Shown one piece after another: positions 32,053-51,742 of a stretch of 64,000 nucleotides of DNA. The position numbers were made by a program, and so were the translations under genes. The stretch covers positions 372,001-436,000 of the forward strand of contig CANNER010000004.1 in assembly GCA_947503715.1 (NCBI GenBank), in the 5' to 3' direction. A model generated the notes under the pieces. That model was not told where the DNA came from. It did no database searches and saw only the letters and a program-made list of their open reading frames with translations. Source of the DNA: an uncultured Caulobacterales bacterium (GTDB lineage Bacteria; Pseudomonadota; Alphaproteobacteria; Caulobacterales; Maricaulaceae). Positions within the stretch are counted from its first letter, which is position 1, and every line of letters starts with the position of its first letter.

Positions 32053-32502
32053 ATGATACTGGGAATATGTTTAGAGTCAGAGGCATTCCAAGCTGCATTA
32101 GTTTCTGGAAGTAAGACTGCCCCTAAACTTGAGCAACGATACATTTGTAAGAACCCAGAAACAGCAAATTTAGCCCGGTCTGCAAGCTGGTATGAAAACC
32201 GTTTCTTTCAATTAATCGACAATCATTCGCCCACTGAGATCGTAGCGAAAATCCATTACGATGTTAAGAATCAAGCTGGGCTGATCAATCATGGGTTTCC
32301 TCTAGGCATACTAGCAAAGTGTTGCCATGTGAGAGGCTTAGAGTTGACATTGGTAACTGTACAAAAACTGAAGGGCGTTACCCTCTTTAGCTTACCAAAA
32401 GGAACCTCAACTTATGAGTGGATAGATCAATATAAAGACACGCAACCGTATTGGAAAAACTCTGGACGAATTGCTACTCTTGCCGCGCTCTCGAAACTCT
32501 AA
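32053..32502 (+). CDS. RNase-H-fold-like protein (DUF3010-like), coupled to a kinase
   Basis: 149 aa, AT-rich. The outline is of a RuvC/RNase-H-like fold: first strand MILGICLESEAFQAALVSGS, then a helix with WYENRFFQLIDNHS, strand EIVAKIHYDV, glycine-rich turn and helix GLINHGFPLGILAKCCHVRG, strand LELTLVTVQKLKG. It resembles the DUF3010 pattern, but the Asp normally in the first strand (G-I-D) is Cys here, so nuclease activity is doubtful. The stop codon overlaps the kinase start (TAATG), making a translationally coupled pair. The fold call is pattern recognition only. Confidence 0.6.
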   Translation: MILGICLESEAFQAALVSGSKTAPKLEQRYICKNPETANLARSASWYENRFFQLIDNHSPTEIVAKIHYDVKNQAGLINHGFPLGILAKCCHVRGLELTLVTVQKLKGVTLFSLPKGTSTYEWIDQYKDTQPYWKNSGRIATLAALSKL

Positions 32503-33530
32503 TGTCATTTAGTCAAGACGAAGTAATAGGCAACTACCAAATTGTGTCGAGATTAGGAAATGGTGTTTCTGGTGTCGTTTATCGAGCAAACCAAATTCTT
32601 TTGAATGCCGAGAGAGCCGTGAAATTTATTCCGGTAAAATCAGGACAAAGTGTCGTTAAGTTACTCGAAGAAGCTCGAAACTCTCACACGGCGGCTGAAG
32701 AACATGTAGTAAATGTCTTTAACGCAAGCATACTTAGACGAGATACTCAGCACTACGTAGCAATCGAAATGGAGTATCTTCCAGACGGCTCTCTTTATAC
32801 TATAGCGAAAAGAAACCAATTGTCTTTTAAGGACACACTAGCTGCGACACGACATGTCTTATGTGCTCTATCCGCTGCGCATCGTTCTGGCATCATTCAT
32901 TGTGACATAAAGCCCGCGAACATACTTAAGTCAGGTAACAACTTCAAACTCGCCGACTTCGGACATTCGTATTTAAAGTCTTCAAGCAACTCTTTCGATA
33001 GTTTAATTTATGTGTTGCATGCTGCGCCGGAGTTACATGCAAAAGCTAGTGCATCGGAGACCAGTGATATATACGCAGTTGGAATGACGCTCTATCGTCT
33101 CACTCGTCCTTTTAATAACATTGATATAAATCTTCCAAATCTTACCAAGTGGCGTTCAAATAAATTAGTTAAAACATTCCCCGAATACAATGGAATGCCT
33201 GACTATCTGCCAAATAAGTTAAAGACTGTAATAAAGAAAGCGACAAGCATAGATCCAAACTCAAGATATCAAAGTGCAGAAGAAATGATGACAGCCGTTG
33301 AAAGATTGTCAGTGAATTTAGATTGGAAAATTTCAAACAATATGTCCTTCTGGGAAGCTAGCGACGGGTCCAAAAACCATAAAGCAAGCTTAACTGCAAA
33401 AAAGGGCAAGGCAGTATGCCAATATAAGATAAACGGACGGAAACCTCGGTTTTGGAACAATGAAGAACAGACGCCAGAAGCAGCTAGAAAACGTTTAAAC
33501 AAGTTAGTAAAAGATACACTGCTTAAATAG
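32502..33530 (+). CDS. Hanks-type Ser/Thr protein kinase, island-borne
   Basis: 342 aa from the ATG at 32502, which overlaps the preceding stop; an in-frame ATG at 32451 lies inside the previous gene and is less likely. Kinase motifs are complete: glycine loop RLGNGVSGVVY (18-28), VAIK-type Lys41 (RAVKF), catalytic loop HCDIKPANIL (D135, K137, N140) and ADFG (D152), with APE as AAPEL. There is no transmembrane segment, so it is cytosolic, unlike PASTA kinases. The C-terminal 60-70 residues (after NLDWKISNN) are a basic Trp-containing extension of unknown role. Low GC and AT-rich codons set it apart from flanking genes. Confidence 0.88.
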   Translation: MSFSQDEVIGNYQIVSRLGNGVSGVVYRANQILLNAERAVKFIPVKSGQSVVKLLEEARNSHTAAEEHVVNVFNASILRRDTQHYVAIEMEYLPDGSLYTIAKRNQLSFKDTLAATRHVLCALSAAHRSGIIHCDIKPANILKSGNNFKLADFGHSYLKSSSNSFDSLIYVLHAAPELHAKASASETSDIYAVGMTLYRLTRPFNNIDINLPNLTKWRSNKLVKTFPEYNGMPDYLPNKLKTVIKKATSIDPNSRYQSAEEMMTAVERLSVNLDWKISNNMSFWEASDGSKNHKASLTAKKGKAVCQYKINGRKPRFWNNEEQTPEAARKRLNKLVKDTLLK

Positions 33531-42861: not shown

Positions 42862-43770
42862 TCACGACATAATGGCTTCCGCAACGCGCCTCATCACTTG
42901 TCCTATTTTTTCATATTTTTCAGCCAGCGGAGACGAATTACGCCAAACAAGCCCGATTTGTCTTTGCGCCTTTGGATGCAGGATGCGGCGGACAATGAGC
43001 TGCGGATCTTTTTTGGCCTCTGAGATGGCATAAAGGCTGGGCAAGACGGCAATACTGCCGCCCATGGCCGCCATCTGACGCAGCGCGTCCAGACTTGTTC
43101 CCTCATATTCACCGCTTGTCGTCGCACCGGCTTGCAGGGCTAGATCTTTTACGACGGTTGCGAATTTATGACCATAACCCAGTGTCAGAAATTCTCGCCC
43201 CTTCAGGTCTTCCAAAGCGATATCCTCCCGGCTTTCCGCTAAAGGGTCGTCGGGCGCGACGCAGATGTAAATATTCTCGCGCACAATATCGAAACGCTTG
43301 CAATCGACGGGATGATCCTCCGGGGTTGAGAGGATGAGGTCGAAACGTCCGTCCGTAAGATGATCTTGAAGATCTAATGTGCGTTCCTCCCTCACGAATA
43401 ACCGTAATTCCGGGTAAGCGGCATGGAGCTCTCGCGTCACTTGCGGCAAAAGATAGGGACCAACAGTTGGCAGGACCCCTAATTTCAATCGTCCCGCCAA
43501 TGTGCCCCCGGACTCCCGGACAAGAACTTTTAGCTCTTCCACCTGACGTAAGACAATGCGGACGCGGGCCACGACCTCCTCTCCAATCGGGGTCAATAAT
43601 GCGCCGTGACGTCCCCGCTCCAGCAAGGACACGTCCAAATGAGCCTCCATATCCTTGATCTGCGCCGAGAGGCTGGGCTGGCTGACAAAGGTCTGTTTAG
43701 CAGCTTCGCTAAAAGTACCCGTCTCGGCAATGGCTACGAGATATTCCATCTGGCGTAATGTGGGTTTCAT
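42862..43770 (-). CDS. OxyR-like LysR regulator lacking the redox cysteines
   Basis: 302 aa. N-terminal winged HTH (LVAIAETGTFSEAAKQTFVSQPSLSAQIKDME) and a substrate-binding domain most like OxyR (LKLGVLPTVGPYLLPQ, EGTSLDALRQMAAMGGSIAVLPSLY). At the place of OxyR's GHCLRDQ...FC the protein reads GHKFATVVKDLALQAG, so both peroxide-sensing cysteines are replaced (Cys to Lys and Ala). It must sense something other than peroxide. It is divergent from the small-ORF/nhaA/sbtA locus, which is its likely target. The intergenic region has two LysR-type inverted repeats. Confidence 0.85.
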   Translation of the reverse strand: MKPTLRQMEYLVAIAETGTFSEAAKQTFVSQPSLSAQIKDMEAHLDVSLLERGRHGALLTPIGEEVVARVRIVLRQVEELKVLVRESGGTLAGRLKLGVLPTVGPYLLPQVTRELHAAYPELRLFVREERTLDLQDHLTDGRFDLILSTPEDHPVDCKRFDIVRENIYICVAPDDPLAESREDIALEDLKGREFLTLGYGHKFATVVKDLALQAGATTSGEYEGTSLDALRQMAAMGGSIAVLPSLYAISEAKKDPQLIVRRILHPKAQRQIGLVWRNSSPLAEKYEKIGQVMRRVAEAIMS

Positions 43771-43788
43771 GCTTCGTCCGCGGCATAA

Positions 43789-43837
43789 GATATAAGAAAA
43801 AGTTATATCAAAAATAGTATCTTTATATTTTAACTAT
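43789..43837. promoter_or_regulatory. Candidate LysR-type binding sites
   Basis: GATATAA (43789-43795) and TTATATC (43803-43809) form a perfect inverted repeat with a 7-base spacer (T-N11-A type); ATAGT (43814) and ACTAT (43833) form a second. Both lie in the 115 bases between the divergent LysR gene and the first small ORF. Confidence 0.5.
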
Positions 43838-43885
43838 GGCAATCAGTTTCCTATATTTAACTTGCGATAAAAAAAGGAGAAAGAA

Positions 43886-44035
43886 ATGTTTCGCGCACCT
43901 CAGATTCAAACCATTCCCAACACAAACTCTACGCTCGCCGTTGCAGCCAACCCGCTGACGCTACAGCGTCGCCGTCGCGCGCGGAGAGCCCGTAAAGGTG
44001 TGAATGCAGAAGCCGTAAGGACGGCTTGGTTTTAG
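43886..44035 (+). CDS. 49-residue basic small protein, hypothetical
   Basis: The ATG at 43886 has a strong ribosome-binding site (AAAGGAG, 5-6 bases upstream). The product starts MFRAPQIQTIPNTNSTLAV and has a very basic stretch LQRRRRARRARKG near residues 27-38, then ends AVRTAWF. No family recognised. It is the first gene on the plus strand facing the LysR regulator. The good ribosome-binding site argues it is translated; the sequence itself is not diagnostic. Confidence 0.5.
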   Translation: MFRAPQIQTIPNTNSTLAVAANPLTLQRRRRARRARKGVNAEAVRTAWF

Positions 44036-44118
44036 GCGAAACGAAACGTCTTAAAATTTCGAGCAAGAGGCGAACATGCCAAAACAGTATTTACGAACCA
44101 GCGAACAGGATTATTCCA

Positions 44119-44211
44119 ATGACATTCAAGACACTTGCCTCCAGCGCTGGGAAGATGAAGGCGGAGCTGACCATGGTTATGTTGATCGTTCTGATTGGCG
44201 CGACAGCCTAG
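44119..44211 (+). CDS. 30-residue putative membrane microprotein
   Basis: ATG at 44119 with AGGA eight bases upstream. The product ends in one hydrophobic helix, AELTMVMLIVLIGATA, so it could be a single-span inner-membrane microprotein. A 55-residue soluble alternative in another frame starts at 44076 (AGAGG site, MPKQYLRTSEQDYSND...) and runs to 44243, overlapping it. Only one of the two is likely real and the sequence does not decide which. Confidence 0.35.
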   Translation: MTFKTLASSAGKMKAELTMVMLIVLIGATA

Positions 44212-44368
44212 GTCCGGCGCATTATCCGTTCACCTCAACCTAAATAACGCGCTGAGGCCCTAGCCTTTGCGCATGCATTTGCAAACCTAAACACAACTCC
44301 CCCCGTATTTTTATAAATTACACCGCCCGGTTCCTCGTGAGCTGCGCGGCTTTTTGGATAAGAGTCTT

Positions 44369-45568
44369 ATGCCCCGTATTATCAATAAAGTTCAGGACTT
44401 TTTGAAACTGGAAACATCGGCTGGGTTTGTCCTGATGGGTGTCGCGCTACTCGCTCTGATTGCAAATAATTCTCCTCTATCGGGCTTTTATTCCAGCTTC
44501 CTGACCACGCCGGTGGAAGTACAGTTTGGAACGTTTGAGATTGCAAAACCTCTCTTGCTCTGGATTAATGATGGCTTGATGGCGATTTTCTTCTTCCTTG
44601 TTGGTTTGGAAATCAAAAGAGAAGTCATGGAGGGTGAGCTTTCCAACTTTAGCAAAGCCGCCATGCCAATTTTTGCCGCCTTTGGCGGTATCGTTGTTCC
44701 GGCGCTGATTTACGTCTATTTTAATATTTCCGACCCCGTAGCCATCCAGGGTTGGGCCATTCCTGCGGCGACTGACATTGCGTTTGCCTTGGGTGTCCTC
44801 GCTTTAGTGGGATCGCGCGCACCGGTTTCCCTCAAGATTTTACTCTTGGCTGTGGCCATTATTGATGATCTGGCCGCCATTATCATCATCGCCCTTTTCT
44901 ACACACAGGAATTGTCCCTTGTGGCTCTGGGATGGGGCGGTATTGGCACAATCGGTCTGGTTATTCTCAACCGTATGGGCGTGATGCGGATCACGCCTTA
45001 CGCGCTTATCGGCGTCTTCATCTGGGCTTGTGTGTTGAAATCTGGCGTCCATGCCACACTGGCCGGTGTGATCACAGCGCTGGCCATTCCGCTAAAGGCC
45101 AAAAACCCCGAAGCGAGCTCTCCTTTACACCGTGCCGAGCATGGTCTGCATATTTGGGTCGCCTTCCTCATCCTACCCCTCTTCGCCTTTGCGAATGCGG
45201 GTGTGTCCCTGAAAGGGATCAGTTTTGGTGATCTCCTCGCGCCGCTCCCCCTCGGGATTGCACTGGGCTTATTCGTCGGAAAGCAGATCGGCGTGTTTTC
45301 CTTCGCGTGGCTATCCGTCAAGCTAGGCCTTGCGAAATTACCGACCGGTGCCAATTGGTTGCAGATTTACGGTGTCGCTTGTTTAACAGGTATCGGCTTT
45401 ACGATGAGCCTCTTTATCGGAACGCTCGCCTTTGATGGTGATGAAACCTTGAACGCTGTTCGATTGGGCGTGTTGATGGGATCCATTGCATCCGGCCTAC
45501 TAGGGTTTGCCTTACTGCGGTTCTTCTGTAATGAGCCCAAAACTGTTGAAGAACATCCAATCGGATAA
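44369..45568 (+). CDS. nhaA: Na+/H+ antiporter NhaA
   Basis: 399 aa from the ATG at 44369 (an in-frame TTG 15 bases upstream has no ribosome-binding site). Twelve transmembrane helices expected. The signature AIIDDLAAIIII contains the paired aspartates (D163/D164 equivalents) and PAATDIAFALGVLALVGSR the D133 equivalent. It exports Na+ in exchange for protons. Its gene precedes an APC permease and a sodium-dependent bicarbonate transporter, so it may generate the Na+ gradient they use. Confidence 0.95.
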   Translation: MPRIINKVQDFLKLETSAGFVLMGVALLALIANNSPLSGFYSSFLTTPVEVQFGTFEIAKPLLLWINDGLMAIFFFLVGLEIKREVMEGELSNFSKAAMPIFAAFGGIVVPALIYVYFNISDPVAIQGWAIPAATDIAFALGVLALVGSRAPVSLKILLLAVAIIDDLAAIIIIALFYTQELSLVALGWGGIGTIGLVILNRMGVMRITPYALIGVFIWACVLKSGVHATLAGVITALAIPLKAKNPEASSPLHRAEHGLHIWVAFLILPLFAFANAGVSLKGISFGDLLAPLPLGIALGLFVGKQIGVFSFAWLSVKLGLAKLPTGANWLQIYGVACLTGIGFTMSLFIGTLAFDGDETLNAVRLGVLMGSIASGLLGFALLRFFCNEPKTVEEHPIG

Positions 45569-45631
45569 GCTTCATTCAAACCCTGACGCGTATCTAAGCT
45601 GGGGTCTGAGTGGCTCATCAGGGGAAAATAC

Positions 45632-47728
45632 ATGGCCGACACGAAAACACTTAAGAAGAACCTGACCCTGTTTGACGTCTATGCGATGTCAACAGGCGCA
45701 ATGTTCAGTTCAGGCCTGTTCTTACTGCCCGGGATTGCCGCTTCCTATACAGGCAACTCCGTTTGGCTGGCTTATTTCCTCGCGGGCTTTCTTATTCTTC
45801 CGGCCATGTATTGTATGGCGGAATTATCGACAGCCATGCCAAAAGCCGGCGGCACCTATTACTTCCTCGACCGGGCCATGGGGCCGCTTATGGGGACGAT
45901 TGGTGGACTGGGGTCTTGGGTTGCCGTTGTTTTTAAAAGCGCTTTTGCGCTTGTGGGAATGGGGGCTTATCTGGGGATTTATCTGGATTTACCTTTTACA
46001 CTCACGGCAATACTGCTGACCTTTGCCTTTGGTCTTATTAATGTTTTCGGGGCCAAGGAAACGACCCTGCTCCAACGCATTCTTGTGACAACGCTGGTCG
46101 GCATACTGATTGTCTTTGTTATATTGGGTTTGCGGGAAACCGGGATTGTCAACGCCTTGCAACCCTCTGATGAACATGGAAGCTATTTCAAGACGGGCAT
46201 CGTGGGTTTCGTATCGACCATCGGCCTCGTTTTCGTCTCCTATGCAGGCCTAACCAAAGTCGCGAGTGTTGCCGAAGAAGTGCAAAATCCGGACCGGAAT
46301 ATCCCGCTCGGCATGACGTTATCCCTGATTACGGCCACGGTTATTTATACACTCGGGACGCTTATCCTGATCGAAGTTTTAGAACCCGAAGAACTTTACG
46401 GCAGCCTGACGCCCATTGCGGATGCGGGTCGGAAGTTTCTAAACTGGGCTCCATTTGATCTTGGGGTTATTTTGATCGTCGTGGCAGCGATTGCGGCTTT
46501 TGCTTCGACCGGTAATGCGGGTATTATGTCAGCCTCGCGCTACCCTTATGCGATGGCAAAGGATAAGCTTGTCCCGAACCAACTTTCAAAAATCGGCAGG
46601 TTTGGAACTCCCACGGTCGCGATTATATTTACCGTCCTGGCCATGGTCGCCGTCCTGTTACTCTTTGACGTTGCCTCTGTTGCAAAGCTGGCCAGTGCGT
46701 TTCAGCTCTTACTCTTTGGTCTGGTCTGTATCGCAGTGATCGTGATGCGTGAGTCAAAAATCCCGACTTATCGTCCGGGTTTCCGCGCACCGTTCTATCC
46801 TTGGCTACAGATCGTCGGAATCCTGATTTCTTTCTGGTTGATTATTGAAATGGGTATTCTCGCTATCGCCTTTACGGGCATGGTCATCATTGGCTGCGTG
46901 TTGTGGTATCACTTCTATGCCTCCGGTAATTTAGAACGCCGCGGCGCAATTTTCCACATCCACGAACGACTGGGACAACAGCGTTATGAGGGGTTGGAAC
47001 GCGAGCTTATGACGATCATTCACGACCGGACACAGGCCGAGAACCTCTCCTATGAGGCCCTGATTGCACGGTCTGTCATGATGGACTTCCGCTATGGCAG
47101 TTATGATAGCGCCCATCTGGAAGAAATTTTGTCCGAGCAAGCAACGTCCCGATTTGACGTTCCCGTGGATGTTATCTCCGAGATGATGAAGGAAGAAAAC
47201 CTCTCCTTCCGCCCAATCAGTCCCGGCGTACATATTGTCTATCAAACCCATGAAGAATTGGAAGAGCCGGAACTCTTCGTGCTTCGCTTTGGACCGCAGG
47301 CACGACTGAATATTAAAACAGCGTCTGAAGCGCATACATTAATGTTTCTCATTGTGCCGCCAAAACCCGAAGGGCTCGACCTCCGTCTGGCCGGTCATAT
47401 CGCGGAAGTTGTACAGAGCGATCATTTCGAGAGACGATGGACCAGAGCCGAGAGCGAACGGGATATGAATGAAATCCTGATGCGGGATGACCATTTCCTT
47501 CACGGCCCGCTCTCGCAATTCCCCGTCCTTCTAGAACAGGCCGGACAAAAAATTGCGGATATTTCGTTGCCCGCATCCTGTCTAATCGCAATTATTGAAC
47601 GGGATGGAGATATTATTGTCGCCACACCGGGTACCCATTTAGAAGCGACGGATGAAGTCGCCATCATTGGGGAACCCGTGGACTTAAAAGCTCTGTGCGA
47701 AAAACCCACTAAGCCAGTCACGGAATAA
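45632..47728 (+). CDS. APC-superfamily permease fused to EIIA-like and RCK_C modules
   Basis: 698 aa. Residues about 10-430 are an APC amino-acid/polyamine permease with twelve helices (MSTGAMFSSGLFLLPGIAA, STAMPKAGGTYYFLDRAMG). Residues about 445-620 look like a PTS EIIA type-2 domain (LSYEALIARSVMMDFRYG..., SPGVHIVYQTHEELEEPELFVLRF); the usual phospho-His context IPH is degenerate. Residues about 630-690 are a TrkA/RCK C-terminal domain (DISLPASCLIAIIERDGDIIVATPGTHLEATDEVAIIG). A transporter gated by a nucleotide or ion is implied. SbtA begins four bases after its stop, so they share an operon. Confidence 0.85.
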   Translation: MADTKTLKKNLTLFDVYAMSTGAMFSSGLFLLPGIAASYTGNSVWLAYFLAGFLILPAMYCMAELSTAMPKAGGTYYFLDRAMGPLMGTIGGLGSWVAVVFKSAFALVGMGAYLGIYLDLPFTLTAILLTFAFGLINVFGAKETTLLQRILVTTLVGILIVFVILGLRETGIVNALQPSDEHGSYFKTGIVGFVSTIGLVFVSYAGLTKVASVAEEVQNPDRNIPLGMTLSLITATVIYTLGTLILIEVLEPEELYGSLTPIADAGRKFLNWAPFDLGVILIVVAAIAAFASTGNAGIMSASRYPYAMAKDKLVPNQLSKIGRFGTPTVAIIFTVLAMVAVLLLFDVASVAKLASAFQLLLFGLVCIAVIVMRESKIPTYRPGFRAPFYPWLQIVGILISFWLIIEMGILAIAFTGMVIIGCVLWYHFYASGNLERRGAIFHIHERLGQQRYEGLERELMTIIHDRTQAENLSYEALIARSVMMDFRYGSYDSAHLEEILSEQATSRFDVPVDVISEMMKEENLSFRPISPGVHIVYQTHEELEEPELFVLRFGPQARLNIKTASEAHTLMFLIVPPKPEGLDLRLAGHIAEVVQSDHFERRWTRAESERDMNEILMRDDHFLHGPLSQFPVLLEQAGQKIADISLPASCLIAIIERDGDIIVATPGTHLEATDEVAIIGEPVDLKALCEKPTKPVTE

Positions 47729-47732
47729 GTCT

Positions 47733-48716
47733 ATGTCGTCTGAGCTGATACTTTCGACAATTTTGTCGCCCATCGTTCTCTTCTTCGTTCTCGGGTTGGG
47801 AGCAGCGCTGCTCAGATCTCAGATGACGGTCCCCGAAGCCTTTGCCAAAGGCCTGGCGATCTATTTGATGATGGCAATCGGCTTGAAGGGCGGTGTGGAA
47901 ATGTCCAAAACCGCGCTGACAGCTGATATATTCCTCATCGCTTTCGTCGCCTTATTATTATCATTCGCGACACCGTTCCTGTCCTATATGATGTTACGGG
48001 TGACCAGCAAGATGAGCCGTCTGGACGCCGCTGCGACGGCCGGGCATTACGGTTCAATTTCTATCGTGACCTTCGTGGCTGCGACGCAGGCGCTGCAACT
48101 CGCGGGGATTGTGACCTCCGGATATATGGTCGCGATGGCGGCCCTGATGGAAGTTCCGGCAATTATGTCAGCCCTGCTTCTGGCGCAACGCAGCATGAAA
48201 AAGAGCGGTGAGGTCGCGGGTTCTGAAAAAGGTGAGCTTTTTCGCGAAGTATTCCTCAACGCCTCCGTTGTCGTCCTCGTCGGCGCGCTGGTAATCGGAT
48301 GGATTACCGGAGAAGCAGGCATGGAAAAAGTGGCGCCGTTCTTCGTAACACCGTTCCAAGGTGTCCTCTGCCTCTTCTTGTTGGATATGGGCCTAAATGC
48401 AGGGCGCGGCTTACGCCAGGGGTGGAAGCAACTGGATATAGGTGCATTGAGCTTCGGTATTTCCATGCCCCTGATCAGTGCGGTGATTACGACGGGGCTC
48501 TGTGCATTAATGGGGCTTTCCGTCGGTGATGCAGCCCTGCTCATCACGCTGGCCGCGTCAGCCTCTTATATCGCTGTTCCCGCCGCCATGCGATTGGCCC
48601 TGCCCAAAGCGCAGCCATCTATTTATCTCACCCTCTCCCTTGGCGTGACATTCCCGTTTAATTTGACCTTGGGCATTCCGCTCTACATTCTGCTCGCGCA
48701 GTGGGTTGGAGGATAG
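47733..48716 (+). CDS. sbtA: SbtA-type sodium-dependent bicarbonate transporter
   Basis: 327 aa, about ten transmembrane helices. It begins MSSELILSTILSPIVLFFVLG and contains GLAIYLMMAIGLKGG, AATAGHYGSISIVTFVAA, PFFVTPFQGVLCLFLLDMG and AASASYIAVPAAMRLALP, all characteristic of the SbtA/DUF897 family. In cyanobacteria SbtA imports HCO3- with Na+. Here it is followed within six bases by an SbtB-type PII gene, which strongly supports the call. The host shows no carboxysome or RubisCO genes in this window. Confidence 0.9.
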   Translation: MSSELILSTILSPIVLFFVLGLGAALLRSQMTVPEAFAKGLAIYLMMAIGLKGGVEMSKTALTADIFLIAFVALLLSFATPFLSYMMLRVTSKMSRLDAAATAGHYGSISIVTFVAATQALQLAGIVTSGYMVAMAALMEVPAIMSALLLAQRSMKKSGEVAGSEKGELFREVFLNASVVVLVGALVIGWITGEAGMEKVAPFFVTPFQGVLCLFLLDMGLNAGRGLRQGWKQLDIGALSFGISMPLISAVITTGLCALMGLSVGDAALLITLAASASYIAVPAAMRLALPKAQPSIYLTLSLGVTFPFNLTLGIPLYILLAQWVGG

Positions 48717-48721
48717 TCATC

Positions 48722-49027
48722 ATGCATACGAAAAAACGTTTAGAACTCATCATCGAAAAGCCCGCCCTAAAACGGGCCTGCCGCGTTTTGGAAGAAGCAG
48801 GCGTCAAGGGCTACACGACTTTCTCTGCCATGGGTGGATATGGTGCAAATACACGGTGGCAGCGCGGCACGGACCTCTCCGCCAGTCGGGATATGGTCAT
48901 GATTATTTCAGTTCTGGACGCAAAAGATATGGAGACAGCGATAGGAAAGCTGGAAAATCTTGTGGGATCGCATATCGGTGTTTTGAGCCTGACAGACGTG
49001 CAAGTCCTCCGCCCCGAAAAGTTTTAA
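48722..49027 (+). CDS. sbtB: PII-like regulator of SbtB/CPII type
   Basis: 101 aa from the ATG at 48722. Trimeric PII fold: RLELIIEKPALKRACRVLEEAGVKGYTTFSAMGGYG, then the T-loop region ANTRWQRGTDLSASRDMVMII and the C-terminal VLSLTDVQVLRPEKF. PII classical uridylylation Tyr and the PROSITE signatures are absent, as in the SbtB/CPII group, which bind cAMP, ADP/AMP or bicarbonate. It ends in RPEKF, like CPII proteins, and lacks the redox C-loop CGxxGC of some cyanobacterial SbtB. It probably gates the adjacent SbtA. Confidence 0.88.
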   Translation: MHTKKRLELIIEKPALKRACRVLEEAGVKGYTTFSAMGGYGANTRWQRGTDLSASRDMVMIISVLDAKDMETAIGKLENLVGSHIGVLSLTDVQVLRPEKF

Positions 49028-49096: not shown

Positions 49097-51742
49097 TTAC
49101 AAAATGAAATCTGCGGCGTCGATATCTGCGACATCCGTATTCAGGATGAGGATATCGTCGCCATTGCCCAAATCAACGATGACGTGACTACCGGCTTTAC
49201 GGATATTGCCTTCTAATTCCGAGAAATCATTAAAGTCGAAAAACGTCAGATCAATCTTGTCCTTCCCGGCCAGATCAAAATCGACAATACGGTCACGGCC
49301 TGTTCCCGCCTCAAAGACAAAAATATCGTTACCGCCATCGCCGCGTAATCTGTCATTACCTGCACCGCCATTGATGATATCGCCACCACTGCCGCCGCGA
49401 ATATTGTCCAGCCCGTCACCGCCGAGTAGCGTGTCCGTTCCCGGCCCGCCAAAAATAATATCATCGCCGGCAGCGCCCGTGACATTGTCATTACCAAATC
49501 CGGCAGCCAAAATGTCATTACCCGTCTGACCGTCAAGTTCATCATCGCCGTTGCCGCCGATCAATCTGTCGGAGCCTCCGCCGCCAATAAGGGCGTCATT
49601 GCCGTCACCACCTTCGAGTTTGTCATTTCCAGAACCGCCCAAGAGGCTGTCATTACCGTCTTCACCAAAGAGTTCATCATTTCCGCGCCCGCCAAAGAGT
49701 TGATCATTGCCAAGATCACCTGACAAAATATCATCATCATCACCGCCATTTAAAACGTCAGATTCGATACCACCTGTCAGCCTGTCATCGCCGCCCAGAC
49801 CGTTGAAAAATGCGCGTTCTGCGCCCGCAACCATCACGTCGTCACCCGCGCCACCATCAAAACCTTCGACCGAAAAGAACATAATTGAGCCGATTGAAGC
49901 ACCACCCGCATCAAAAAGGTCCGCTTCGCCCGTGCCAAAGTCTACATTGACTGACGCGACACTGTCGTCCAGCGCGATAACATCGCGGTCTTCGCCACCA
50001 TTGATGTCATGCATTCCAGAACCAATGATAAATCTATCATCGCCGGTATCACCGAAAAGACCCGAATCTGCGCTGCCAATGTTGATAATCGTATCATCGC
50101 CGTCGCCTCCCCGGATACGGCTTAGGACATTTAACATATTCGTAATTGTATCATTCCCATTTCCGCCCAGAATGTCTCCGCTGACTTCGCCAGTATTGGT
50201 GATAATGTCATTCCCTTCACCGCCCTCAATATTGGAGAGAACATCAGCTTCATTGGTGATCGTGTCATCCCCGTCCTCACCTTCAATGTTCGAGCTCACT
50301 TCGCCGCGATTGGTGATGATATCGTTCCCGAACCCACCCAATAAATTACTGAAAATGATTGCATTGCTTGCGTTTGTTATTGTGTCATTACCACTACCGC
50401 CATTGACGTTCGATAAAACCGCACCTTCATTGAGAATCGTGTCATCACCAGACTCGCCATCAATATCTGAACCGACCTCACCCCGGTTCGTGATCACATC
50501 ATTCTCAGTACCCGCGAAAATGCCTAGAAAAATGGTGGAGCCGACAGATGTGTTGATCGTGTCCACGCCTTGTCCGCCAAGGACATCACCAAAAACTGTG
50601 CCGTTATTGGCGATCATGTCATCATCATTTGCGCCGTTAATAGAGCCATCAACCAAGCTATTATTTGTAATGAAATCCGCCCCGTCATTTCCGTTAATAT
50701 CTTCAGATACAGTGCCTTCATTCAGAATCGTGTCGTTACCATCATCACCGAGGATGCTGGCGCTGAGCTCGCCGCGATGCGTGATGATGTCATCACCTGT
50801 ACCGCCGCGAATTCTACCAAATTGCCCCGTGATGACGGAATCTACCGAAGTTATAATCGTATCATTTCCTGAGCCGCCAACAATTTCCGCTCCAACGATA
50901 CCATTATTATTGATGGCATCGTCATCATCGCCACCATTGATGCCGGCAGTCAGCTCGCCATCATTCGTAATTGTATCTATGCCATCACCGCCTTGTAAGG
51001 TTAAGGCTGTGCCTGTGGAGGTGTTTAAAATCGTATCATCACCAACATCCCCGCGAATATTGCCCGTGACTTCGCCACGATTGGTGATCGTGTCATCGCC
51101 GATACCGCCGGAAATATTAGCAATCGTGCCAGCTTGATTATTGACGATCGTATCATTCCCATCACTTGCCGAGACATTCCCCGTCAGCGTGCCATCATTT
51201 GTGATAAAATCAGTTTCGTTCCCGCCGGAAATACCGCCATTTACAAGACCGTTATTGGTAAAGGTGTTTGTTCCGCTGGAGGCTGATAAAAACCTCGCCG
51301 TCCCGTTATTTGTAATTGTATCATCATCCAGACCGCCGAAAATCTGTCCGGCCGTTCCATTATTGAGTATGATATCATCTCCAGAGCTACCAAAGATATT
51401 TGAATCGATACGTCCATTATTCTCAACCGTATCATTCCCGTTCCCTGCGAAAATGGTACCCGTCACAATACCGTTGGACGCAATCGTGATTGAGTCATTT
51501 CCGTCGAAACCATTAACGGTATCTACAGTCTCATTTCTGATAATTATGACATCATTCCCACTCGTCCCATCAACATCAAAGAAAGGCGTAGGAATATTCG
51601 CGGGTGTGTAATCCGACATTGGGAATATTAGAACGCTCGTGACTTCGGATAGTGCGCTTACATCCTTGAACAGATCATCGCGGTCAAACGTAAACGCTTG
51701 AAAATCAGTGGTAGCAGATGTCTGAGTGAAGAAGCGTTTCAT
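49097..51742 (-). CDS. Large RTX-type calcium-binding repeat protein, probably T1SS-secreted
   Basis: 881 aa with no Sec signal. Residues about 55-560 are some 23 repeats of about 21 residues built as NNG-x-V/I-x-G-x-I-x-G-x-GDDTI, which would stack as a beta-helix. Residues about 640-800 are canonical RTX nonapeptides GGxGNDxLx (for example GGRGNDELFGEDGNDSL), which bind Ca2+. The C-terminus (EAGTGRDRIVDFDLAGKDKI...ILNTDVADIDAADFIL) is the serralysin-type C-terminal region that carries the type I secretion signal. There is no enzymatic domain. A surface or matrix protein is likely. No T1SS genes are adjacent. Confidence 0.9.
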   Translation of the reverse strand: MKRFFTQTSATTDFQAFTFDRDDLFKDVSALSEVTSVLIFPMSDYTPANIPTPFFDVDGTSGNDVIIIRNETVDTVNGFDGNDSITIASNGIVTGTIFAGNGNDTVENNGRIDSNIFGSSGDDIILNNGTAGQIFGGLDDDTITNNGTARFLSASSGTNTFTNNGLVNGGISGGNETDFITNDGTLTGNVSASDGNDTIVNNQAGTIANISGGIGDDTITNRGEVTGNIRGDVGDDTILNTSTGTALTLQGGDGIDTITNDGELTAGINGGDDDDAINNNGIVGAEIVGGSGNDTIITSVDSVITGQFGRIRGGTGDDIITHRGELSASILGDDGNDTILNEGTVSEDINGNDGADFITNNSLVDGSINGANDDDMIANNGTVFGDVLGGQGVDTINTSVGSTIFLGIFAGTENDVITNRGEVGSDIDGESGDDTILNEGAVLSNVNGGSGNDTITNASNAIIFSNLLGGFGNDIITNRGEVSSNIEGEDGDDTITNEADVLSNIEGGEGNDIITNTGEVSGDILGGNGNDTITNMLNVLSRIRGGDGDDTIINIGSADSGLFGDTGDDRFIIGSGMHDINGGEDRDVIALDDSVASVNVDFGTGEADLFDAGGASIGSIMFFSVEGFDGGAGDDVMVAGAERAFFNGLGGDDRLTGGIESDVLNGGDDDDILSGDLGNDQLFGGRGNDELFGEDGNDSLLGGSGNDKLEGGDGNDALIGGGGSDRLIGGNGDDELDGQTGNDILAAGFGNDNVTGAAGDDIIFGGPGTDTLLGGDGLDNIRGGSGGDIINGGAGNDRLRGDGGNDIFVFEAGTGRDRIVDFDLAGKDKIDLTFFDFNDFSELEGNIRKAGSHVIVDLGNGDDILILNTDVADIDAADFIL

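Follow-up and report, generated by a model that had tools for sequence, protein, structure and literature searches.

Within the Sbt_1 family, which Pfam titles the Na+-dependent bicarbonate transporter superfamily, the protein of known structure and transport is the cyanobacterial Slr1512, whose gene is followed by that of the PII-like Slr1513 (Transporter Classification 2.A.83). The family extends further, and published descriptions, as excerpted, place SbtA-like proteins in numerous heterotrophs (PMC10117731), propose an anaplerotic role for Sbt in the alphaproteobacterial lineage 'Candidatus Phycosocius' (PMC10008586) and record an Sbt permease in some members of SAR11 IIIa/LD12 (PMC10030771). 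The latter two cases, known here by description only, are alphaproteobacterial, are read as non-autotrophic and connect Sbt to anaplerotic enzymes, so that the general idea of such a transporter in a heterotroph is not new. Here, we consider a locus at positions 42862–49027 of a 64,000-nucleotide stretch (hereinafter, the window; assembly GCA_947503715.1, contig CANNER010000004.1, positions 372,001–436,000) from an uncultured member of the Caulobacterales, family Maricaulaceae, with a 3.15 Mb genome that is 99.97% complete. We read it, with a probability of roughly 0.58, as a LysR-controlled divergon for Na+-driven uptake of inorganic carbon in an organism without ribulose-1,5-bisphosphate carboxylase/oxygenase (RuBisCO). 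This reading keeps the sodium and carbon themes, the lack of RuBisCO, the gene order and the divergent regulator of the initial annotation but not the assignment of the transporter to cyanobacterial-type SbtA. The content, order and conservation of the genes, the class of the transporter, the lost residues, the operator-like sites and the genomic associations can be read from sequence, and the proposal is built on these; the substrate, the direction and coupling of transport, the action of the PII protein, and the DNA binding and cue of the LysR protein are inferred.

Sbt homologues are present in 77 of 199 related genomes surveyed, the window genome included. For the analysis of genomic context, 80 stretches from 74 of the 76 other Sbt-carrying genomes, 80 named loci and the window were combined into 161 loci, of which four duplicates (L141, L142, L143 and L146) were removed, leaving 157 loci, window included, in which neighbours were counted by tblastn; loci L111–L140 were used in the trees and left out of the context counts. 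The complete suite of LysR, NhaA, APC fusion and SbtB surrounds Sbt in 12 of the 157 loci, the window among them, a grouping that is beyond chance. Ten of the 12, again counting the window, retain the gene order of the window at Sbt identities of 64–91%, which supports the initial annotation, whereas L090 and L093 are rearranged, with the APC gene placed after sbtB; further loci are interrupted by contig ends. A PII-like gene lies at most 400 bases from Sbt in 121 of the 157 loci. In L107 (G117) and L108 (G196), the Sbt match is split in two pieces, and L107 lies next to nhaA and lysR. A protein of 217–248 amino acids with a glycine-rich N-terminal part is encoded between nhaA and Sbt in L035, L055 and L060.

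In the window, the minus-strand lysR (42862..43770) diverges from a plus-strand series comprising two small open reading frames (43886..44035 and 44119..44211), nhaA (44369..45568), the APC fusion gene (45632..47728), the Sbt_1 transporter gene (47733..48716) and an sbtB-like PII gene for 101 amino acids (48722..49027). Profile matches agree with the initial annotation on all named genes and their places, as well as on the 4-base gap preceding the Sbt gene; the gap preceding sbtB is 5 bases, not 6, given that the Sbt stop codon ends at 48716 and the ATG lies at 48722, or else the genes overlap if GTG 48701 is the start. NhaA scores 498.8 bits with the Pfam model and 481.3 bits with the equivalog model TIGR00773 (cut-off 254), and its ATG start is kept among the relatives, with TTG 44354 also open.

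The best evidence on the function of the locus comes from the neighbours of Sbt, counted in a near zone (within 2.5 kb; 761 kb searched) and a far zone (2.5–8 kb; 1539 kb searched). Genes for beta-carbonic anhydrase occur near Sbt in 50 of the 157 loci and in the far zone, which is twice as long, only once. The respective numbers are 21 and one for NhaA, and 13 and none for MnhE, a subunit of Mrp-type antiporters (subunit names by Pfam). The large Mrp subunit, encoded further along in the same operons, is found near in no locus and far in 13. In these loci (L031, L032, L041, L043, L044, L046, L048, L053, L056 and L096–L099), Sbt and the PII-like gene are followed by Mrp-type subunits, including MnhE, MnhF, an MbhD-like protein and the large subunit. 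In five loci of one genus (L034, L038, L045, L050 and L054), a convergent gene for an alpha-carbonic anhydrase, the N-terminus of which resembles a signal peptide, lies about 0.4 kb downstream of Sbt; these loci include LysR, and no SbtB was detected in them. Carbonic anhydrase, NhaA, Mrp and the partner LysR are all seen with the transporter class of the window only, and never with the Slr1512 type. The partners vary by lineage and the theme is constant, and inorganic carbon together with Na+, the two links proposed in the initial annotation, appears to be the best reading of the locus.

The same counts bear on an unlikely alternative, namely, that the locus is foremost a unit of Na+ and pH homeostasis, in which NhaA would take the leading part, with Sbt, the APC protein and the PII protein tuning internal pH and charge by moving bicarbonate and another solute. 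The position of nhaA as the first large gene, the lack of any other NhaA match in this genome, the recruitment of an Mrp-type antiporter in 13 other loci and the presence, in the tail of the APC protein, of TrkA_C, a domain known from K+ systems, would all be compatible with such a role. However, none of the 50 loci with beta-carbonic anhydrase has NhaA or MnhE in range, which makes carbon a commoner theme than Na+ balance and favours inorganic-carbon uptake. The beta-carbonic anhydrase is likewise absent from all 35 loci with a partner LysR, compared to its presence in 50 of the 122 loci without one. Substitution of carbonic anhydrase by Sbt was considered and rejected: the beta-class enzyme is missing from 16 of the 77 genomes with Sbt versus 15 of the 122 others (p = 0.11), and four of the 16 have an alpha-carbonic anhydrase.

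The transporter itself (Sbt_1, 370.6 bits; cut-off 27) belongs to a class distinct from that of cyanobacterial SbtA. Over 284 aligned residues, the window protein shares 29% identity with Slr1512, whereas eight proteins from related genomes reach 62–66% and are of the true SbtA type. In trees of 36 rows, the two classes split with support of 100/100 and 200/200 bootstrap trees, with the window protein and Slr1512 on opposite sides, and a FastTree of 187 rows reproduces the split, with a separating branch of 2.35 changes per column; the cyanobacterial side of these trees is one protein, Slr1512, represented by 288 residues in two segments. In the docked bicarbonate site of Slr1512, replacement of any of the contacts S114, Y140, S324 and S327 by alanine leaves about 10–40% of the transport activity (PMC8352866). 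The corresponding residues of the window protein are S, A, S and A, so that S114 and S324 are retained and Y140 and S327 are replaced. All four contacts are preserved in 8 of 190 aligned rows, and position 325 is occupied by tyrosine instead of the aspartate of Slr1512 in all 182 window-class rows, a few of which are duplicates. The window class is widespread: Sbt_1 exceeds the cut-off in 55 of 398 Pseudomonadota genomes, with Caulobacter vibrioides among the control matches, and all 30 loci from this phylum search, the window among them, fall into this class. Three genomes of the window's genus (G014, G016 and G017) carry a window-class Sbt and an Slr1512-type SbtA at separate places (L105, L100 and L104; L091, L090 and L092), suggesting that one class is unlikely to stand in for the other. 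The same pair of Sbt identities is seen in some genomes of genus g5.

It is, then, very improbable that the locus is a cyanobacterial-type SbtA-SbtB module residing in a heterotroph, as the initial annotation had it. Common to both are the Pfam families and the sbtA-sbtB gene order, but the deep split between the classes and the separate location of true SbtA-type genes in related genomes, including the three genomes with both, speak against such a module. As to whether the transporter clusters with homologues that do not carry bicarbonate, it does stand apart from Slr1512, among members of untested substrate, although many of the latter are encoded beside a carbonic anhydrase.

The altered binding site makes room for another, improbable, explanation, under which the window class would move a different small anion, for example, formate, or would export bicarbonate produced by carbonic anhydrase. 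Besides the replacement of two of the four bicarbonate contacts, this explanation draws on SO_3758 of Shewanella oneidensis, which, according to excerpts of the published account, is linked to formate tolerance in a manner judged to fit better with efflux (PMC12093963). The motif of that protein, S268, A269, S270 and I272 in the published alignment, resembles the window class in its serine-alanine-serine and in I272, by this partial description only (PMC12093963). The repeated linkage of window-class genes to two unrelated classes of carbonic anhydrase speaks against this explanation, and a Na+-coupled carrier next to Na+ extruders would be expected to import, both of which favour uptake of inorganic carbon.

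The lack of RuBisCO, noted initially for the window, holds for the whole genome, in which no match to PF00016 was found; carboxysome genes and other fixation pathways were not searched. RuBisCO exceeds the cut-off in 7 of the 199 genomes, none of which is among the 77 with Sbt (p = 0.045), an avoidance that is descriptive only, given that five of the seven belong to one genus. An eighth match, in G130, is weak and below the cut-off. Potential consumers of bicarbonate other than RuBisCO are represented by a 947-amino-acid open reading frame at G000:C2 near 593372–594124 (L221), which contains a partial match to phosphoenolpyruvate carboxylase (250 residues, 59.8 bits) and might be a divergent version of this enzyme or something else. 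The window genome encodes one beta-carbonic anhydrase; no match to pyruvate carboxylase or alpha-carbonic anhydrase was found in this genome.

The PII-like protein (PF00543, 45.1 bits; cut-off 25) adjoins the transporter gene, as annotated initially, but is nearer to CPII than to SbtB: in profile comparisons, CPII is the best solved match (58 bits, over the full length), compared to 32 bits for cyanobacterial SbtB. The CPII structure, PDB 5d4n, is presumably that of the Thiomonas protein, which is said in the title of its paper to be carboxysome-associated and bicarbonate-regulated; the window protein differs in its setting, a genome without RuBisCO. Some SbtB proteins conserve a C-terminal CGPxGC redox loop, which is missing here, and the respective cysteine pair was found in none of 123 PII proteins. 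This locus thus departs from Slr1512-Slr1513 in its PII protein and in the absence of RuBisCO, as well as in the transporter.

The regulator (LysR_substrate 132.5 bits, HTH_1 70.1 bits) has OxyR proteins as its best solved matches and scores 217.4 bits with the NCBIfam OxyR model, under the cut-off of 329; a single CbbR model was reported, with 79.3 bits (cut-off 450), and CcmR and CmpR were not in the comparison. In all 34 LysR proteins aligned, the first redox cysteine of OxyR is replaced by lysine or arginine (lysine in the window), and the second, as aligned, by alanine in 33 and serine in one (alanine in the window), in agreement with the replacement recognized in the initial annotation. 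A partner LysR is encoded within 5 kb of Sbt in 35 of the 157 loci, near in 25 and far in 10, the far ones mostly with nhaA and the APC gene in between. These are counts above a score limit, which excludes weaker LysR genes beside Sbt (for example, in L064, L067, L069, L100 and L103); two low-scoring LysR genes adjoin genes of the true SbtA type.

According to an excerpted source, OxyR proteins recognize ATAG-N7-CTAT repeats arranged as a tandem pair 7 to 10 bp apart (PMC8787470). The divergent promoter region of the window contains a relaxed form of this arrangement at 43792..43828, namely, ATAA-N7-TTAT, a 7-base spacer and ATAG-N7-ATAT, recognized by pattern and by alignment of the relatives, in which the conserved block extends to 43838. 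The exact ATAG-N7-CTAT box, for which the window has the relaxed tandem only, is present in 16 of the 33 upstream regions compared, against a mean of 0.07 and a maximum of 2 in 300 dinucleotide shuffles (relatedness of the regions uncorrected; L144, with 2 bases upstream, dropped). A pattern search recovers the relaxed tandem, spaced by 7 bases, from the window and three relatives (shuffle mean 0), and a similar arrangement was read by eye in the alignment of three further loci (L071, L074 and L075). With putative OxyR-type boxes present and the cysteines lost, the operator grammar seems to have outlived the peroxide switch.

The APC protein consists of a permease domain (approximately residues 1–440; AA_permease_2, 161.7 bits), an EIIA-like domain (approximately 513–616; PTS_EIIA_2, 15.4 bits, below the cut-off of 27) and TrkA_C (637–690; 38.2 bits, above the cut-off of 27). 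Seven other genomes encode stand-alone PtsN-like proteins that the EIIA-like part matches weakly (E-values of 4e-05 to 9e-04). A structural model of the tail (46922–47725), of modest confidence (predicted local distance difference test score of 60.7), matched PtsN (E-value of 4.3e-06) and TrkA in Foldseek searches. In addition, the EIIA-like domain resembles SLC4 anion/bicarbonate transporters, mostly their cytosolic domains (E-values of 2.4e-05 to about 1e-03), with TM-scores for the PtsN and SLC4 matches that are low (about 0.2–0.5) and root-mean-square deviations of about 12. Unlike PtsN (EIIA-Ntr), with which it appears to have its fold in common, the domain is fused to an APC permease and has lost the phospho-histidine: the AIPH of PtsN aligns to HIVY, placing a tyrosine at the site, and histidine is found in this column in none of 14 aligned fusions, the window included. 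The fusion is present in 15 relatives and the window, and the tail has no other strong match among the 398 genomes across the phylum, so that it looks lineage-specific. Most terms of a narrow search of open-licence papers for an APC, EIIA and TrkA-C fusion returned no match.

Both small reading frames upstream of nhaA, listed in the initial annotation, have conserved counterparts in relatives and are apparently real genes. The first (43886..44035; 49 amino acids, no Pfam or NCBIfam match), sought as an ATG following an A[AG]GAG site, was recovered from 11 of 13 upstream regions; each of the 11 products starts with MFR or MLR, nine end with W[FY], and most contain a run of arginines. The second (44119..44211; 30 amino acids, no Pfam match) retains a K[ML]KAEL[TA] motif and a hydrophobic tail, likely one membrane helix, in seven compared loci. 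Comparisons over 22 codons gave nonsynonymous divergence (dN) of 0.19–0.52 and synonymous divergence (dS) of at least 0.84 where computable. Frame 44076–44243, an earlier candidate for the second gene, was dropped, given that the relatives conserve 44119..44211 instead.

Under the uptake reading, NhaA would expel Na+, and the Sbt_1 protein would import bicarbonate on the resulting inward Na+ gradient, for use in ordinary carboxylations, in pH balance or in both. The CPII-like protein might gate the transporter according to the state of the cell, and the LysR protein, derived from OxyR and devoid of the peroxide-sensing cysteines, would bind the tandem boxes between the divergent genes in response to some cue. 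The tail of the APC protein could be a sensory domain, not phosphorylatable in the manner of EIIA, that regulates the attached permease. Several observations weigh against this scheme. The 157 loci are mutually related, so that neighbour counts are not equivalent to independent events, and 45 of the 147 window-class loci with context have no carbonic anhydrase, antiporter or partner LysR (37 with SbtB only and eight with nothing). No carbonic anhydrase was found in a total of 19 kb around the locus of the window, and, with a partial match to phosphoenolpyruvate carboxylase and none to pyruvate carboxylase, an anaplerotic consumer is not secured. The 29% identity to Slr1512, the replacement of Y140 and S327 and the suspected efflux role of the Shewanella protein count on the same side.

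In a wider proposal, which we regard as tentative, the window class, widespread in Pseudomonadota, would constitute a second family of inorganic-carbon transporters that are driven by Na+ and have an altered binding site, and would have been recruited repeatedly with NhaA, an Mrp-type antiporter or carbonic anhydrase (beta or secreted alpha). Such a transporter would have been brought, in the Litorimonas-Hellea lineage, into one regulon with an OxyR blind to peroxide, two new microproteins and an APC permease bearing a non-phosphorylatable EIIA sensor, of a fold also seen in the cytosolic part of SLC4. Among open-licence papers, we did not find the class split, the linkage counts or this divergon, and most terms of a narrow search for an Sbt-carbonic anhydrase operon in alphaproteobacteria gave no match. 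If the window class carries inorganic carbon, many bacteria without RuBisCO would actively import bicarbonate by a Na+ cycle, and the changed binding site would offer a natural comparison for bicarbonate recognition. Should it carry something else, an annotation in wide use would be wrong; the characterised protein, Slr1512, represents the other class.

Scans of the window for Rfam families and tRNA genes gave no match. Right after sbtB, on the opposite strand, a gene at 49097–51742 encodes an 881-amino-acid protein with many repeats rich in asparagine, glycine and aspartate (DDTI, GGxGND), which reads as RTX-type calcium-binding repeats. Elsewhere in the window, the segment 32001–34000 is AT-rich (G+C fraction of 0.397 versus 0.54–0.61 alongside) and contains two open reading frames, 32451–33530, the product of which resembles a protein kinase, and 32053–32502.

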